64,000 nt of DNA from Betaproteobacteria bacterium (GTDB lineage Bacteria > Pseudomonadota > Gammaproteobacteria > Burkholderiales > CAIKXV01). The notes under the pieces were generated by a model. It saw only the letters and a program-made list of their open reading frames with translations, was not told the origin of the DNA and searched no databases. Made by a program: the position numbers and the translations under genes. Positions 57,401 to 64,000 of this stretch are shown one piece after another. The stretch lies in contig CANGYF010000012.1 of NCBI GenBank assembly GCA_947458265.1, positions 62,001-126,000 of the forward strand, in the 5' to 3' direction. Within the stretch, counting starts at the first letter, position 1; each line of letters opens with the position of its first letter.

Positions 57401-59545
57401 TCAGAATGCGCCCTGGCGGAACAGTGCCGCGGCGATGGCTGACAGCCAGCGGCGTCCCGGGCTGTCCGGGCGGGCGTCGATATGGACTGCGACGCGCCTG
57501 ACCGCGACGCGGCCGGGCAGTGGGTCATCGCCCTCGATCACGACCCGGTAGAGCGCATCCACCGGTGCCAGACCACCGCCAGGCCCGGCGGGCAGGACCT
57601 CGACCGGACCACCGTGGCCGTCGGCGAGCAACCGGTGCGGCAGCCGCTGGACGCGTGCGCCATCGATCGCCGCGAGGCGGCCGGAGAGCCGGTGCCCACT
57701 GCCTGCAACGATCACCGTCACGGCATCGCCGGTGCGGATGCGCGACAGATCGGCCTCGGCAACCAGCGCCTCGACCTGCCAGCCTTGTGCGTGCACCAGC
57801 CAGGCAATCGGCGTGGCGGCATCGATCCAGCTGCCCGGAGCGAGCAGCGGGTCGACATCGCGAACCGTGCCGGCACGCTCGGCCACGATGCGAAGGCGGG
57901 CGAGCTCGGTGGCGCGCGCACCAGCCTCGGCGCGCCAGCGCTGGCTCTGGCGATCGGCAATGACCTGGCGCGCAGCGCCATCCTGATCCAGGCCGACCGC
58001 GCCGCCAGCGGCACGCCGGTAACCCTCGGCCACCGCCAGCGCACGCCGGCGCTCGTCGTCCTCGCGCGGCGCATGCAGCTCGGCGAGTACATCGCCGGCC
58101 TGCACCGTCTGGCCATCGCTCACCGACAGGCGTTCGATGCGACCGGCGTAGGGGGCGTATACCGCCTGCTCGCCCGCCGAGCGCAGCACGCCGGGTGCCT
58201 GCACCCGGGTCGGCCAGGGCAGGAGCAGCGCGATCAGCGGCAGGCCGATGGCCAGCAGAAGCACGAGGATGCGCGATCCGCGTACGGCCGCACGCTGCTG
58301 CCACCACGCTCGCAGCTCGGTGGCAACCGGACGTCCGATGAATACCCAGAGTTCGACCACGAACAGCAGGATGCCCAGCGCCTTGAAGAACAGGTGGTAG
58401 ACCAGCAGCGCGATACCGACGAACACCACCAGACGGTAGAGCCAGGTGACCAGCGCGAAGGCCACCAGCAGCGCGCCACGGCCCGGCGGCAGGCTCTCGG
58501 GCACCGGCGATTCCAGGCCGAGCACGACCCGCCGCAGCCAGCGTCGCGCATGGGCGCCGGCACGCTCGTGCAGGGCCGGGAAATCCAGCCAGTCGCACAG
58601 GATGAAGTAGCCGTCGAAACGCATGAACGGGCTGGCATTGACCAGCAGCGTCCAGGTCCAGGAGGTGGTCGCAAGCAGGAACAGCGCGTGGCGCAGGGGC
58701 CCATCGGGGAGCAGGCACCACGCCAGCGTCGCCCACGCCGCCAGCGCCAGCTCGGCGACGATGCCTGCGCTGGCGATCGCCATGCGGTGGCGCGCACGGG
58801 TCAGTTTCCAGCCTTCCCCGGTATCGGTGTAGGCCATCGGCCAGAGCACCACCAGCGCGATGCCCATGTGGCCGACGCGTACGCCATACCGGGTCGCGGT
58901 GAGCGCATGCGCGAGTTCGTGCACCAGCTTGGAGAAGGCGAGCGCGATGAGCAGCGTGGCTCCGCCCTGCCAGCTCAGCAGCGCCCCAGCGCCCGCGCGC
59001 ACCTCGTCCCACTGGCGCGCGGCGAGCAGCAGCCCGGACACGGCAGCCAACACGCTCAGTACGAGGAAGCCGCGGGTCCAGAACATGCCCAGACGGGGCG
59101 CCAGCCAGGCCAGCACGCGTGCCGGGCGCACCAGAGGTATGCGCACGAACAGGTAGTGCTGCAGCCACCAGCGCCAGCCGAAGCGCGGCGGCAACGCCCG
59201 CGCCGGCAACGCACGCAGCAACTGCTGTGCACGCAGGAACGCCGCGAAGGCCTCTACGTCTGCCGGCTCGGCCTGCAGTGCCGTGTCGGCGCGAATCTGC
59301 GCTGCGATCTGCGCGGCATCCCCGAGATGCCAGCGCACCAGCATCTCGAACTCCAGCCAGCCAATCCGGCAGTAACGGTTGGCCACCGGATCGGCGACAT
59401 GCCAGGCCGGCGAGCCGTCGGGGTTGTCGCCGGCACGGTGCAGGCGCAGCTCCTCGCGCAGTTCGGGCCAGGGTACGGGCGCCGCCTGCGCAGGGCGCCC
59501 CGCGGGGATCGCCCCTTCCGCTGCAACGACAGACGAACTCAGCAC
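57401..59545 (-). CDS. PqqD-like / M50 metallopeptidase / HlyD adaptor fusion protein
   Basis: A 714-residue inner-membrane fusion. Residues 25-115 resemble a PqqD-like winged helix (WPELREELRLHRAG...WHVADPVANRYCRIGWLEFEML). Membrane segments follow, with M50 zinc ligands HELAH (209-213) and NASPFMRFDG (303-312). After more helices (to about 440), a HlyD-type biotinyl/lipoyl module starts at VQAPGVLRSAGEQAVYAPYAGRIERL. GTG 59545 overlaps the upstream stop by seven bases; other starts up to 59608 are possible. It is the last gene of the export operon. Proteolysis may activate or release cargo; this is inferred. Confidence 0.85.
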   Translation of the reverse strand: MLSSSVVAAEGAIPAGRPAQAAPVPWPELREELRLHRAGDNPDGSPAWHVADPVANRYCRIGWLEFEMLVRWHLGDAAQIAAQIRADTALQAEPADVEAFAAFLRAQQLLRALPARALPPRFGWRWWLQHYLFVRIPLVRPARVLAWLAPRLGMFWTRGFLVLSVLAAVSGLLLAARQWDEVRAGAGALLSWQGGATLLIALAFSKLVHELAHALTATRYGVRVGHMGIALVVLWPMAYTDTGEGWKLTRARHRMAIASAGIVAELALAAWATLAWCLLPDGPLRHALFLLATTSWTWTLLVNASPFMRFDGYFILCDWLDFPALHERAGAHARRWLRRVVLGLESPVPESLPPGRGALLVAFALVTWLYRLVVFVGIALLVYHLFFKALGILLFVVELWVFIGRPVATELRAWWQQRAAVRGSRILVLLLAIGLPLIALLLPWPTRVQAPGVLRSAGEQAVYAPYAGRIERLSVSDGQTVQAGDVLAELHAPREDDERRRALAVAEGYRRAAGGAVGLDQDGAARQVIADRQSQRWRAEAGARATELARLRIVAERAGTVRDVDPLLAPGSWIDAATPIAWLVHAQGWQVEALVAEADLSRIRTGDAVTVIVAGSGHRLSGRLAAIDGARVQRLPHRLLADGHGGPVEVLPAGPGGGLAPVDALYRVVIEGDDPLPGRVAVRRVAVHIDARPDSPGRRWLSAIAAALFRQGAF

Positions 59546-60906
59546 CCGCACCACTCGCGCAGCGCCGCCAGCGGCCGGCGCAGCAGCAGGTAGCCGAGCA
59601 CGGTCCATTCGCCCGCGATGCGTACCGTCCCGCGCAACCCGACGCGCACGGTCTCGCTGCTCGCCTGAAGGCGCCCGCGCACCCGGTAGCCGGCAATGCC
59701 CTCGGGCGAGTCGACGACCTGGTAGGACGCATGGTCGAGGCTGCCCGACAGGGGCTGCAACGGCGCCACCCGCAGGAACAGCGTCATCGGTGCGCCCGGC
59801 GCCAGGTTGATCGCGTCGGCCACTGGCACCCAGGCCTGGATGCCCGGCTGACCCGGATCGCTCAGCAGCCCGATGCGCTCGCCGGTCTGCACCGGCTTTC
59901 CGGCCCAGTCATCGGGGTGGGAATAGACGAACACACCATCGGCGGGCGCCACCACCTGCAGGCGCGCGAGTTCCGCGGTCAGGCCAGCGATCTCCGCCTC
60001 GCGCTCGCGCACCCGTGCCTCGGCCTGCCCGACTTCCGCGCGCGCCTCCTGTCGGTCGAAGGCGCGCTGCGAGGATTGCAGGAACTCGGCCCGGGTGGTC
60101 GCCATCGATGCCCGCGCCACCGACAGGCGGCTGCGCAGGCTGGTGTCGTCGAACTCGGCGAGCACATCGCCCTTGCGCACCGGGGTGTTGGGCGGCACGC
60201 GCATCGTGCGGATCACGCCGGTCTGCGGCGCCGCGATGACCTGGCTTTCCAGTGAAATCACCTCGGCCGGCGCGAGCGAGTACTCGCGTACCGGCACTGC
60301 CAGCAGCAGCAGGACGGCAAGCACCCCGATCCGGGCACGGCGTGAGCCCGCAGTCATGCGCCAGCGCTCGGCGAGGCGCGGTCGCCGTGACGCCAGCGCC
60401 CACCAGGCGTGCCCGGCCACGCCGGCGGCGGCCGCCAGCCACCAGGACGGACTGCCATCGTCCAGCGCCTCAGGCCACGGCGATTCGCGAGCCAGCACCA
60501 GCACCGCGCGCAGCACGGCGTCCGGTCCGCGCAGCGGCAGCAGCAGCGCATGCGGCGGCAGCCACTCCGACCAGCCATCGGCCAGCCGCGCCGGGAGACT
60601 GCCCGCGTCGGCGGCGAGCATGGCCGCCTCGGGCGGCAGCTCGATGAGGGCTGGCCGCAGCGCATCCACCATCTCGCCGATCCACAGTGCGAACGGCGTG
60701 TCCGCGTCCACCGCCACCAGGCCAGAGTGCGCGAGCAGCGTACCGCGTCCGGCCGTACCGCAGCCCACGATGGCCGCCTGCCGGTACTCGACCAGCGCGC
60801 GCAGTTCGTTGCACAGCACGAAGCTCAGCGCCGGCAGGTCGCGCGCCTCCTGCATCCGCGCGGTGAGCCGCAGATGCACGGCTGCACCCTGGTCGACGAC
60901 CGGCAT
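59539..60906 (-). CDS. HlyD-family adaptor with GAF-like cytosolic N-terminus
   Basis: A 455-residue protein. Residues 1-175 look like a GAF-type cytosolic sensor (ALSFVLCNELRALVEYRQAAIVG..., LLLPLRGPDAVLRAVLVLARES). One membrane helix follows at about 193-206, then a HlyD/MFP periplasmic part: EVISLESQVIAAPQTGVIRTMRVPPNTPVRKGDVLAEFDDTSLRSRL, a coiled-coil hairpin rich in Arg/Glu/Ala (260-315), and the second lipoyl half PADGVFVYSHPDDWAGKPVQTGERIGLL. It starts seven bases after the adaptor gene and overlaps the M50 gene. Confidence 0.85.
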   Translation of the reverse strand: MPVVDQGAAVHLRLTARMQEARDLPALSFVLCNELRALVEYRQAAIVGCGTAGRGTLLAHSGLVAVDADTPFALWIGEMVDALRPALIELPPEAAMLAADAGSLPARLADGWSEWLPPHALLLPLRGPDAVLRAVLVLARESPWPEALDDGSPSWWLAAAAGVAGHAWWALASRRPRLAERWRMTAGSRRARIGVLAVLLLLAVPVREYSLAPAEVISLESQVIAAPQTGVIRTMRVPPNTPVRKGDVLAEFDDTSLRSRLSVARASMATTRAEFLQSSQRAFDRQEARAEVGQAEARVREREAEIAGLTAELARLQVVAPADGVFVYSHPDDWAGKPVQTGERIGLLSDPGQPGIQAWVPVADAINLAPGAPMTLFLRVAPLQPLSGSLDHASYQVVDSPEGIAGYRVRGRLQASSETVRVGLRGTVRIAGEWTVLGYLLLRRPLAALREWCGC

Positions 60907-60913
60907 CCGGGAA

Positions 60914-61774
60914 TCAGCGCCGCGGCACGACCACCCGGCCACTCATGCCGGGCAGCAGGTCGGCGCCGCCGCCTTCGAAGGTCGTCTCGAGTTCGATGGT
61001 CTGGCTGACCGCATCGACCCGCCCTGCCACGCGTGCCACGCGCATCGCGTGACGGCGTCCGGTCTCGTCGATCACGGCGTCGAGCCGCTCGCCCGGCTTG
61101 ATCCAGGCCAGCCACCGCGAGGGTGCATTCACCCTGGCCCTGACCGCACCGCTGCCCACCACATCGATGATCGGCGCGCCAGCCGTGACGCTCTGGCCCG
61201 GCCGGACGTGGATGCGGGCCACCCGTCCGTCGAACGGCGCACGCACCACGCACTGCGCCAGCTGGGCCTCTATCACACGTGTCTGAGCCTGCGCCCGATC
61301 GACCGCCGCGGCGGCCAGCGCCACCTCGATCTCGGCGGCTGACTGCAGCCCCTGCAGGCGAAGCTTGGCTTCATGCTGCAGGCGCGCGGCACTCGCCTCG
61401 GCAACGGCCGCCTCGCGGCGTGCCTCTACCTCGGCGCATTCGAACCGTACCAGCGGACGACCGGCGGCCACCGCGTCACCCAGGCGCACCTCGACTGCGG
61501 ACACCCGGGCCGCAGCCGGCGCCGACATCGCACTCTCCTGGTCAGCAACCACCAGCAGGCGCACTTCGATATCCGTCGCGCGCAGCCGGCCCGCCGCATC
61601 CCCTGGCGCGATCTGCACTGGCACTGGCACTTGCACCGGTACCGCCCCCTGCGCCAGCGACAGCGTCGGCATGCCGTACCCGAGCGCCAGTGCCAGCACG
61701 GCGCACGCCGTGCACGTCCGCCATCTGGACGGGATCCGTCCCAGGACATGACCCGGCGCGTGGTCGGTGTTCAT
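60914..61774 (-). CDS. Periplasmic adaptor subunit (HlyD/RND-type membrane fusion protein)
   Basis: A 286-residue exported adaptor. The signal segment ends near LSLAQGAV (residue 42). Lipoyl halves ESAMSAPAAARVSAVEVRLGDAVAAGRPLVRFECAE and APFDGRVARIHVRPGQSVTAGAPII flank a short helical hairpin (EARREAAVAEASAARLQHEAKLRLQGLQS), and a beta-barrel region follows. There is no RND pump gene nearby. The ATG overlaps the TolC-like stop by ATGA. It would bridge inner-membrane components to the TolC-like channel. Confidence 0.88.
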   Translation of the reverse strand: MNTDHAPGHVLGRIPSRWRTCTACAVLALALGYGMPTLSLAQGAVPVQVPVPVQIAPGDAAGRLRATDIEVRLLVVADQESAMSAPAAARVSAVEVRLGDAVAAGRPLVRFECAEVEARREAAVAEASAARLQHEAKLRLQGLQSAAEIEVALAAAAVDRAQAQTRVIEAQLAQCVVRAPFDGRVARIHVRPGQSVTAGAPIIDVVGSGAVRARVNAPSRWLAWIKPGERLDAVIDETGRRHAMRVARVAGRVDAVSQTIELETTFEGGGADLLPGMSGRVVVPRR

Positions 61775-63654
61775 CGACCCGGGCCGCGAGCGCCCAGCGC
61801 CTCGCGCAGCCGCGCCATCACCGACAGCACCGCGGCCTCGGCGAAGGCCGATAGCGTCTTCGCATCGGAGGTCGCCGACAGCACGCTGGTGTAGTCGGAG
61901 CCGAACACCGGCTTGCCCGCGGCATCGGTGACATCGATCCGCCACGTGGCGCGGCCGCCACCGGCCGGCGGCGGCGTGAACGCGAGCGACAGCCGGAAAG
62001 CATCGTCGACCGTACGCACGCCGACCTGGCTGCGCGCGAGCACGCGTTCGACCGACTCGCGCACGGTGCGTTCATCGCCCTGCCCACCCAGGCCCGCGAT
62101 CGCCACGCGGACCGGCCGCGGTGCGGCTACTTCGGCCACCCCGATGCGAAACGCCTCTCTCTCGCCAGCGGCGAGCGAACTCTCGATCGCCCGCTGCAGG
62201 TCGGGCATTTCGGCCGAGCGGACTTCACCAGGCAGCAGGTCGATGCCGAGCGAGTTCTTCACCCGCCCGAACGCCGCCTGCGCAGCGGCGTAGGCGGTCG
62301 CCTGCTGGTAGCGGGACACCAGTGCGCGGCTCTCGGTGCGCAGCGCCTCGAGTTCGCTCTCCAGGCGGCTGGCCGCGCTGGTGCGTGCGATCGCCGACAG
62401 GCGCTGATCGACCTGGGCGGACTCGCGGGCAAGGTCATGGTCGAGCGTGGTCAGGCGATAGCGCTCCACGGACACTCGAACCTGGGTGATCACCGCCATC
62501 GATAGCGCCATGCGGCGGGCGCTGTCTGTCTGCGCACGCGCCTGGTTGGCACGGCGCATCGTCGGCAGGCCGGTCAACCGCATGAGATTGATCGACACGC
62601 TGGCTCCTGCATCGGCCCAGGTGTTGTTGTAGAGGTACGTATTGGAGTTGTAGCTCGCACCGGCAAAGATGTTCAGGTTGGGAAACATCGACGCCAGTTG
62701 CCGGCGCGCCTCGTTCTGGGTGATCCGCGCCCGGTAGTCTTCCTCGAGCAGCTCCGGACGACGGGTGAGCGCCATGCGCTCCAGTTCGGGCATGTCGACC
62801 GGTACGGCCAGCAGCGGCGGCTCGGCGACATCGGCGATGCGCACCTCGGTGCCCGGGCGTACGTTCATCAGTGCCGCCAGTTCGCGGCGGGCGAACTCCA
62901 TTTCCTGGCGGCGCAGGTTCACCATCGTCATCGCGTCGAGCAGGGCACGCTGATAGGCCAGCGCCTGCGCCGGGGGTAGCACGCCAGCGCGCTCGGCATC
63001 GCGCGAACGCTCGATCGCCGAGCGGATCGCCACCAGCAGGGCATCGGCCTCGCCGGACAGTCGCTGCCCAGCGGCCGCACGCCAGTAGGCACTGCGCACG
63101 TCCTGCACGATGTTCTGCAGGATCTTGCGCCGCCGCTCCTCGGCAATGCTCACCTCGTCCGCAGCCTGCTTGGCGCGGTAGTAGCTGATGCCGAAATCGA
63201 GCACGTTCCATGACAGTTCCGCCCGTGCGGTGCTGAAGGCACGTTCTTCGGATGTCGACGGGCGGAGACTGACCAGCCGGTCCTCGATACCGATGCTGGT
63301 GCCCCCGGAGTCGTTGTTGCGCGACCGGTAGCCGGCATCGGCGACCACCCTCGGCAGCAGGTCCAGGCGAGACACGTCGAGCAGCCCCTGCGACAGCGCG
63401 ATCTCCATCAGCTTGAGGCGGTAGTCGAGGTTGTACTTGAGCGCCCGCGCCAGCGCACCGGAGAAGGTGAGCGGCTCGGTGAGCACTTCGTGGTCGGCGT
63501 ACATCGCGTCGCTGTCGCGGCGTACCCGCTCTTCGATCTGCTCGGCCGTCAGGCGCTCGGGAACGATCGAGCAGCCGGAAAAGGCCAGGACCACTGCGGC
63601 GGCCAGCGCCCAGCGGGTGGATCGCGCGAATCTGCGGGTCGGATCACTCATCAT
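61771..63654 (-). CDS. TolC-family outer-membrane lipoprotein with C-terminal extension
   Basis: A 627-residue TolC-like outer-membrane factor. The leader ends in a lipobox (LAFSGCS, Cys28), so it is probably lipid-anchored. Two TolC repeats with SRLDLLPRVVADAGY and PELLEEDYRARITQNEARRQLASMFPNLNIFAGASY are visible, ending near residue 485. The last 110-130 residues (from VRVAIAGLGGQGDERTVRESVERVLARS) form an extra alpha/beta domain not found in TolC, resembling TolB-N/CsgG-like modules by eye. Two adjacent ATGs compete (63654, 63651); AGGA precedes them. Confidence 0.88.
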   Translation of the reverse strand: MMSDPTRRFARSTRWALAAAVVLAFSGCSIVPERLTAEQIEERVRRDSDAMYADHEVLTEPLTFSGALARALKYNLDYRLKLMEIALSQGLLDVSRLDLLPRVVADAGYRSRNNDSGGTSIGIEDRLVSLRPSTSEERAFSTARAELSWNVLDFGISYYRAKQAADEVSIAEERRRKILQNIVQDVRSAYWRAAAGQRLSGEADALLVAIRSAIERSRDAERAGVLPPAQALAYQRALLDAMTMVNLRRQEMEFARRELAALMNVRPGTEVRIADVAEPPLLAVPVDMPELERMALTRRPELLEEDYRARITQNEARRQLASMFPNLNIFAGASYNSNTYLYNNTWADAGASVSINLMRLTGLPTMRRANQARAQTDSARRMALSMAVITQVRVSVERYRLTTLDHDLARESAQVDQRLSAIARTSAASRLESELEALRTESRALVSRYQQATAYAAAQAAFGRVKNSLGIDLLPGEVRSAEMPDLQRAIESSLAAGEREAFRIGVAEVAAPRPVRVAIAGLGGQGDERTVRESVERVLARSQVGVRTVDDAFRLSLAFTPPPAGGGRATWRIDVTDAAGKPVFGSDYTSVLSATSDAKTLSAFAEAAVLSVMARLREALGARGPGR

Positions 63655-63676
63655 GTTCCTGAATACCTCGTGTCGT

Positions 63677-64000
63677 TCAACCGGCGCGTGCGAGCGTACG
63701 CGCCCCTTCCGTCGCCACGGCCGCCGGCGCGTGCACCACGCGCGGCAGCGTCGACGGCGACTGCCCTTCGCGCACCAGCGCGCGCTCGAGCGCCACCTGG
63801 CGCAACTGCTGGGTGAAGCCCGTCCACGGCGCCGGTGACATGGCGCGCGATGCGCTCGTCCCGTCCTGCGCCACGGCAGGCGCGCCGCGACCCTCCTCAG
63901 GTTGCGATGCCCGATCCGCAACAGGCGGCGGTTCGTCGCGGGCCGCCCGCGCGGCTTCCTCCGGCGCAGCGGTGACAACTTCGCGAAGGCCGAACAGCGG
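63677..64000 (-). CDS. C-terminal fragment of an unknown protein, 5' end outside window
   Basis: The frame is open from the window edge for 107 residues to a TGA at 63677. The sequence is low-complexity, rich in Ala, Pro, Arg and Glu, with a possible amphipathic segment WTGFTQQLRQVALERALVREG. I do not recognise a family. It lies 22 bases upstream of the TolC-like gene on the same strand, so it is in the same operon and could be the C-terminus of the exported substrate, where secretion signals often lie. That is inference from position alone. Confidence 0.6.
   Translation of the reverse strand, partial: PLFGLREVVTAAPEEAARAARDEPPPVADRASQPEEGRGAPAVAQDGTSASRAMSPAPWTGFTQQLRQVALERALVREGQSPSTLPRVVHAPAAVATEGARTLARAG

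Follow-up and report, generated by a model that had tools for sequence, protein, structure and literature searches.

Giant repeat adhesins are served by type I secretion systems of the LapA/Bap/SiiE type, which combine HlyD adaptors and a TolC-family outer-membrane protein with a giant repeat cargo. Another arrangement was predicted by Kamneva, Poudel and Ward in 2015 (PMC4452313), whose main text describes a secondary SecA encoded with M50-HlyD, GAF-HlyD and HlyD proteins, sometimes with an OEP protein and with no ABC gene. The authors predict secretion, with SecA providing ATP hydrolysis and the M50 protein perhaps forming a pore, and call the broader role unknown. Here we analyze a minus-strand operon (57401-63654) in a window of 64,000 nucleotides from the Betaproteobacteria contig CANGYF010000012.1, in which four tightly packed genes encode, in this order, a TolC-like lipoprotein, a small adaptor, a GAF-HlyD adaptor and a fusion of an RRE (PqqD-like) domain, an M50 protease core and a HlyD adaptor part. 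The same M50-HlyD, GAF-HlyD and HlyD proteins thus stand together as in the 2015 module, but a second SecA_DEAD protein over the family cut-off is lacking in the window's genome, as is a second SecA in 80 related loci, and TolC and a giant gene usually belong to the cassette. The cassette is a SecA-less variant of this known, uncharacterised module, for which a cargo and its signals are newly proposed.

Other parallels come from peptide maturation and from a family of N-terminal motifs. Precursors of ribosomally synthesised and post-translationally modified peptides (RiPPs) are acted on by M50 proteases, among which EpeP is thought both to cleave and to export (PMC10885120, in its passages on these enzymes). 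The fusion resembles RiPP M50 proteases (daptide NF041824, EpeP, TglG) and lasso-peptide RRE proteins in its alignment to the daptide model and in its leader-binding fold, but differs from RiPP M50 proteases by its HlyD adaptor part and its link to proteins of thousands of residues. The N-terminal motif of the giants resembles NCBIfam LEPR-XLL (NF012209), which giants of related genomes match, several of them over the cut-off. In the passages that name it, LEPR-XLL is reported on a Vibrio protein of ~8,000 amino acids (aa) with C-terminal RTX and serralysin domains (PMC10868602) and otherwise as a transcript only. These passages mention neither HlyD nor M50, and no published link between LEPR-XLL and this exporter was found in titles and abstract openings. 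Likewise, the main text of PMC4452313, supplements apart, makes no mention of giant, LEPR, adhesin, PqqD, leader, VCBS or cargo.

We propose that the operon is a cassette dedicated to exporting and processing a giant surface protein, in which the RRE would bind the N-terminal motif of the giant and the M50 core would cleave it, a reading to which we give a probability of about 0.6. In contrast with LapA/Bap/SiiE-type systems, there is no ABC gene in the cassette, one adaptor is fused to a protease and the cargo proteins share an N-terminal motif.

Giant repetitive proteins and their terminal motifs

The fusion is present in 57 of the 369 genomes of the class (E<=1e-20) and, in relatives with long contigs, the cassette adjoins open reading frames (ORFs) of, for instance, 4,381, 10,462, 4,358 and 2,016 aa. 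A scan of a larger collection, from which the best 80 of 590 loci were kept (the 80 loci referred to throughout), gave labels mostly from alpha-, beta- and gammaproteobacteria, with some Nitrospira and sulphate reducers. Their commonest gene order is giant, TolC, HlyD, GAF-HlyD, M50, with the giant placed elsewhere in some. A composition filter finds a repetitive ORF adjoining the cassette in 71 of the 80 loci, a count that includes L109 and L131, although the repetitive ORFs there encode proteins of a different kind; among the nine remaining loci, four lie at contig ends and L150 has a neighbour of 3,137 aa that fails the filter. An earlier count (motif in 20 of 31 large neighbours) was dropped and redone with the filter, the loci inspected having revealed antisense and unrelated ORFs. 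The giant of the window itself is visible over 794 aa (L003 6678-9062), with VCBS, Big_9 and cadherin-like repeats, its N-terminus lying beyond the contig; the BapA/Bap/LapF large adhesin model NF045619 gives this truncated protein 90.4 bits, below the cut-off of 180. The cassette very probably serves giant proteins.

The association extends to plasmids. The five-gene set occurs on two plasmids that were read, from E. coli and Citrobacter, with giant ORFs of 13,374 and 13,398 bases and under record names such as 'Ig-like domain-containing protein', 'TolC family protein' and adaptor names. Plasmid records with the fusion number 70; among 5,426 complete E. coli genomes, 24 carry the E. coli form of the fusion, and plasmids account for 21 of its 25 places. 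On the Citrobacter plasmid (NZ_CP142906.1) the cassette is close to tellurium-resistance genes, and the annotation splits the GAF-HlyD gene into two overlapping pieces (L212 18631-19975).

Visible starts of giant ORFs share a short motif. In a first set, LExRx[LMV][FLY]D[GA] or LExRxLLSAD lies near the start of all 11 giant ORFs with a visible start; a twelfth ORF (G323, 1,010 aa), a different kind of protein, is without it. The motif is a form of LEPR-XLL, with eight of ten scanned N-termini matching NF012209 at E<=10 and four at or over its cut-off. Among the 80 loci, an LExRx[MLV]FD[GA]-like motif is found in 20 of 24 visible giant N-termini, against 0/24 other large ORFs and 1/440 small ORFs of the same loci, the single case being a fragment of an interrupted giant gene. 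As NF012209 exceeds its cut-off in 28 and fails to do so in 16 of the 44 genomes scanned from the 80 named, the model misses part of the motifs of what we call below the near clade. Planc_extracel, a family of N-terminal motifs from Planctomycetes, was absent from a Pfam scan of the N-termini, Planctomycetes themselves lying outside the sample. The giant N-termini are not hydrophobic, with a median peak of 0.97 (n=21) versus 1.94 for the adaptor and 2.09 for TolC (n=48 each).

LEPR-XLL and the fusion also co-occur genome-wide. At E<=1e-3, LEPR is found in 28 of the 369 genomes, 26 of which have the fusion (Fisher p 7e-22); at E<=0.1, 36 of the 57 fusion genomes have a match (p 1e-20). In a second class, the corresponding figures at E<=0.1 are 7/10 fusion genomes and 11/180 others (p 2e-6), the fusion count of 10/190 being that left after nine of 19 matching genomes, matched over the HlyD part alone, were dropped. 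Of 27 entered LEPR frames located on the same contig as the fusion, 22 are no more than 6 kb away from it. This count draws on 55 of 89 LEPR rows, the 34 dropped rows coming in 30 cases from genomes without the fusion and in four from genomes that have it (G038 and G482 with one each, G440 with two short ones); the two G440 rows are on the fusion's contig but far off, and including them gives 22 of 29.

Some LEPR-XLL frames are of great length: 14,112 aa (G240:C84), 13,848 aa (G053:C1), 12,249 and 10,327 aa (G107:C1), 10,477 aa (G279:C56) and 10,025 aa (G574:C4). In Komagataeibacter (L130, L132, L158, L176), the giant gene is on the strand opposite the cassette and its product opens almost directly with the motif, MRLILEQRYLFDGS. 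DUF4347 directly follows the motif in four of five scanned LEPR giant N-termini (e.g. L211 2364-2963), and these proteins have SHG and YGCD stretches that may correspond to the His-Cys dyad of caspase-like folds.

The other end of the giants carries a second signature, [AKR]P[SG][FL]S[EQ]QLRxAA, which starts at a median of 32 residues from the end. It was derived from 61 loci with a visible giant 3' end (57 once near-copies were removed), half serving for training and the rest held out in 30 splits; when the false-positive rate on shuffled tails is set to 5% or 1%, held-out recall is 0.86 or 0.76, respectively. The giant of the window, outside the training set, carries it as WTGFTQQLRQVA, with three of 2,000 shuffles scoring as high; the corresponding numbers are 8/2,000 for the E. 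coli plasmid protein and 0/2,000 for both G224 and G162. A first test against internal windows (recall 0.95 at 2%) was dropped as too lenient, since tails differ in composition: its threshold of 4 was exceeded by 25% of shuffled tails and 27% of the tails of other proteins. The shared C-terminal motif is apparently undescribed so far; we met no description of it, although no literature search was aimed at C-terminal motifs.

Domain structure of the cassette proteins

The AlphaFold model of the fusion (63 sequences, mean pLDDT 88.2) comprises a low-confidence tail to ~40, an RRE at ~46-133 with a three-strand, three-helix domain at 55-127, a membrane M50 core at ~145-462 with long helices up to ~462, and an adaptor part at 465-713. 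By fold comparison of the model, the N-terminal domain has the winged-helix fold of the RRE/PqqD type: residues 46-133 superpose on a lasso-peptide B1 protein with bound leader (6jx3_B; Z 10.9, root-mean-square deviation (rmsd) 2.7, 82/85 aligned). Pfam gives no PqqD match in the window fusion, and PF05402 (PqqD) exceeds its cut-off in one fusion homologue (29.9 vs 23.4 bits). Residues 465-713 superpose on MacA (9qgy_G; Z 16.1, rmsd 3.4, 219 aligned). For the core, Peptidase M50 PF02163 is over cut-off (32.9 bits vs 27.2), and HELAH at 230-234 (H230, E231, H234), N324 and D332 are invariant in 28/28 homologues from a similarity search and in 63/63 of a second set, in which conservation of D332 is partly due to selection because this set was fetched by a pattern around D332. 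With an M50 profile, an HExxH site and a distal Asp ligand, the fusion is a predicted protease. Its best NCBIfam match is the daptide M50 protease NF041824 (E 9.5e-48; 163.2 bits, below the cut-off of 300), aligned over residues 76-421, that is, part of the RRE and the M50 core. Among the best 50 of 290 Foldseek matches of the whole fusion only adaptors appear, a list in which the absence of an M50 structure does not imply that none matches.

The GAF-HlyD protein (model from 49 sequences, pLDDT 93.6) consists of a GAF domain (1-175), a single hydrophobic helix (~189-210) and an HlyD/MacA-like part to 455. Residues 3-175 superpose on phytochrome GAF domains (9jry_B; Z 17.1, rmsd 3.1, 160 aligned), and Pfam gives no GAF match in the window protein at E<=1; residues 184-455 superpose on MacA 9qgy_G (Z 16.1, rmsd 7.0, 250 aligned). 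The small adaptor scores 106.2 bits with TIGR01730 (cut-off 94.9) and has a hydrophobic N-terminus resembling a signal sequence, and the lipobox of the TolC-like protein is LAFSGC. From the topology, the RRE and GAF domains would both face the cytoplasm. The TolC-like protein also has a C-terminal extension beyond its OEP domain (window 61776-62247), with a match to DUF6894 below cut-off at residues 563-584.

The layout of the operon is given in Table 1. Pfam assigns OEP to the TolC-like protein, HlyD-type domains to the other three and Peptidase_M50 to the fusion. The four coupled export genes of the original prediction are all in place by Pfam, fold and coordinates, and its GAF-HlyD adaptor, PqqD-like domain and intact HELAH and NxxP...DG sites are borne out by the folds and the invariant residues above. 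The junctions, described there as overlapping or within seven bases, are a 4-base overlap (TolC/adaptor), a 7-base gap (adaptor/GAF-HlyD) and a 70-base overlap (GAF-HlyD/fusion); the description holds, with the extent of the last overlap shrinking to 16 or <=10 bases if GTG starts at 59554 or 59545 are used. The cut upstream gene also exists. From its stop at 63677 it extends 2,061 bases beyond the window, where the contig breaks off still inside the giant gene, so that extending the sequence adds only this gene and no ABC or RND pump gene. Since its stop lies 22 bases ahead of the TolC start, the giant gene probably belongs to the operon. The suggestion that it encodes the cargo gains support from the conserved tie of the cassette to large repetitive proteins, which the proposed search for co-occurrence of such genes with the four-gene set brought out.

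Table 1. Coordinates of the operon genes and of the C-terminal motif in the window
Feature	Position	Strand	Length and basis
RRE(PqqD-like)-M50-HlyD fusion	57401..59608	-	735 aa; Pfam, alignment, AlphaFold model, fold comparison
GAF-HlyD adaptor	59539..60906	-	455 aa; fold comparison of model
Periplasmic adaptor, RND_mfp/HlyD family	60914..61774	-	286 aa; Pfam, TIGR01730
TolC/OEP-family lipoprotein with C-terminal extension	61771..63654	-	627 aa; Pfam OEP, lipobox
Giant VCBS/Ig-repeat gene (proposed cargo), 3' end	63677..64000	-	runs on to contig end
C-terminal motif WTGFTQQLRQVA of giant protein	63791..63826	-	begins 49 residues before protein end

The inner-membrane engine in two clades

The operon holds the HlyD-type adaptor and the TolC-type outer-membrane protein of a type I system, and the locus contains neither the ABC exporter that such a system has nor the pump of an RND system. 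No ABC or RND gene was found in the cassette in any of the 80 loci (one query each, E<=1e-5), and none is annotated with it on the E. coli and Citrobacter plasmid stretches. Sixteen ABC/RND ORFs occur in 12 of the 80 loci and come within 1 kb of the cassette in two: that of L123 is on the opposite strand and that of L176 forms a separate downstream RND set. Two ABC genes beside the fusion in other genomes were set aside. The one in G229 is of the ABC-F type (PF12848, PF16326), with no membrane domain among the best 25 of 43 families, and is followed by a gene for an NAD-binding protein; the one in G112 was set aside by position and length only. The original prediction of an operon without an ABC or RND engine, which an upstream or widely co-occurring pump would have contradicted, agrees with these observations as far as the loci reach, the view past the giant gene being limited in that most loci end inside it. 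Its claim of 'no engine' must nevertheless be narrowed to this branch, because the module is a branch of the set reported with a second SecA (PMC4452313).

In a more distant clade of fusions, a SecA-like ATPase of 650-666 aa adjoins the fusion (four proteins scanned; seven genomes in the fetched stretches). With clades assigned by tree where a row was present and otherwise by fusion search score, a second SecA was found in 16 of 38 fusion genomes examined, 15/22 in the distant clade and 1/16 in the near clade, the sole near-clade genome (G303) having both motif types; it was found in 0/8 genomes without the fusion and in none of the 80 loci. In the window's genome, one SecA, in a 935-aa frame, passes the family cut-off and a second match falls short of it. 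An IQ-TREE analysis of 28 fusions separates the two clades with 100/100 support: on one side stand 10 rows from genomes with D[GA] motifs, on the other nine SecA rows and two SAD/SAN rows without SecA, seven rows having no known motif. The 30 LEPR loci read gave 19 SAD motifs, three D[GA] (all from near-clade genomes) and five variants, with three unread. Motif type and exporter type split together, as expected if one recognises the other.

Proposed mechanism and rival explanations

In the mechanism that we propose, the giant protein would be made without a classical signal peptide, and its LExRx[ML]FDGA segment would serve as a leader to which the RRE of the inner-membrane fusion binds, in the way that RREs bind the leaders of RiPPs. 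The M50 core may then cleave at or near this leader, which could either gate transport or release the giant protein. The conduit to the surface would consist of the TolC lipoprotein together with a soluble adaptor, an adaptor whose GAF sensor is cytoplasmic and the adaptor that includes the protease. As to energy, the second SecA-like ATPase may push the chain in the sister branch; in the branch of the window, the force could come from the housekeeping SecA, from an ABC exporter encoded at another site or from repeats that fold once they are outside the cell. For the individual steps, we lean towards the RRE reading the N-terminal motif, and put cleavage of that motif by the M50 core at even odds. 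A bolder version, which we consider doubtful, is a separate class of envelope-spanning exporters devoid of an ATPase of their own, in which the RRE reads the leader, M50 is both gate and leader peptidase, the GAF domain of a partner adaptor is the sensor of a cytoplasmic signal and the C-terminal motif is a second tag needed for full recognition, with folding outside the cell or a borrowed SecA as the driving force.

Several observations weigh against the proposed mechanism. No ATPase was found for the cassette itself, and seven distant-clade genomes with SAD-like motifs (G350, G290, G052, G206, G284, G177, G190) yielded no second SecA, so that this partner is not universal even in the distant clade. 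The N-terminal motif is missing from four of the 24 visible N-termini: L109 is a different, protease-like protein, L131 has a different start with an apparent signal peptide, and L121 and L130 are fragments of interrupted genes, the N-terminal fragment of L130 carrying the motif. Twenty-one of the 57 fusion genomes are without a LEPR match even at E<=0.1, which cut contigs and diverged motifs explain only partly, and the co-occurrence p-values, which ignore genome relatedness, are optimistic. The window giant has no visible N-terminus and NF012209 has no match in its genome, although the giants of relatives match. Conversely, G213 and G076 have a confident LEPR but no match over the M50 part among the matches listed, and the control genome G004, without LEPR, has an RRE-M50 match. 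The C-terminal motif is absent from the giants of G119, G279, G323, G306, G056, G229 and G112. Finally, the RTX and serralysin domains described for the published LEPR-XLL giant (PMC10868602) would fit a normal type I route.

This last point leads to a type I system working in trans, in which an unlinked ABC exporter would drive export through these adaptors and the M50 fusion would only trim or release the product. The same RTX domains, the score, albeit below cut-off, of the window giant with the canonical adhesin model and an unlinked ABC gene of the type I class in the same genome (C3:4461-6128; 635 bits to TIGR03375, cut-off 693) speak for it. That gene is, however, already paired with its own HlyD-like adaptor gene, no ABC gene accompanies the cassette in the 80 loci and two plasmid stretches, and the best ABC match stays below 320 bits in 7 of 14 genomes searched, scores that we would read, without a type I control score, as those of generic exporters. 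We regard this type I route in trans, with a LapG-like role of the fusion, as improbable. The C3 contig (L233 2-7348) carries a type I set of its own, made of a truncated 923-aa ORF, a 419-aa ORF, a 696-aa ABC protein and a 391-aa HlyD-like protein, so the strain probably has a canonical type I system as well.

Equally unlikely in our view is a two-step route in which SecA/SecYEG would deliver the giant to the periplasm, M50 would cleave the leader, and the adaptors and TolC would pass the chain outward. The SecA over cut-off in the window's genome and the second SecA-like ATPase of many sister-branch genomes, in several next to the same genes, are in line with it, as is the co-opted secondary SecA proposed in the main text of PMC4452313. 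Yet the giant N-termini lack a hydrophobic signal core, and the route would require thousands of residues to remain unfolded in the periplasm. A RiPP-like locus for peptide maturation and export, with the giant gene as a merely frequent neighbour, could account for the RRE fold and the daptide model as best match of the fusion, and would recall the M50 enzymes cleaving RiPP precursors and the proposed double role of EpeP (PMC10885120, same passages). Against it stands the genome-wide LEPR association in two classes; moreover, the gene maps revealed neither a conserved small gene nor a maturase, though no search was aimed at either. We hold this explanation to be very unlikely.

The dedicated cassette that we favour connects an N-terminal motif so far unexplained in giant bacterial proteins with a specific exporter, and offers a cargo for a module that was predicted in 2015 without one. 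It also defines a testable lock-and-key pair, the RRE domain and the LExRxxFDGA segment. If true, leader recognition in the style of RiPPs would be used to secrete proteins that are thousands of residues long, and an export route beyond the ABC, RND and MFS engines would exist in Gram-negative bacteria, among them some E. coli that carry plasmids.

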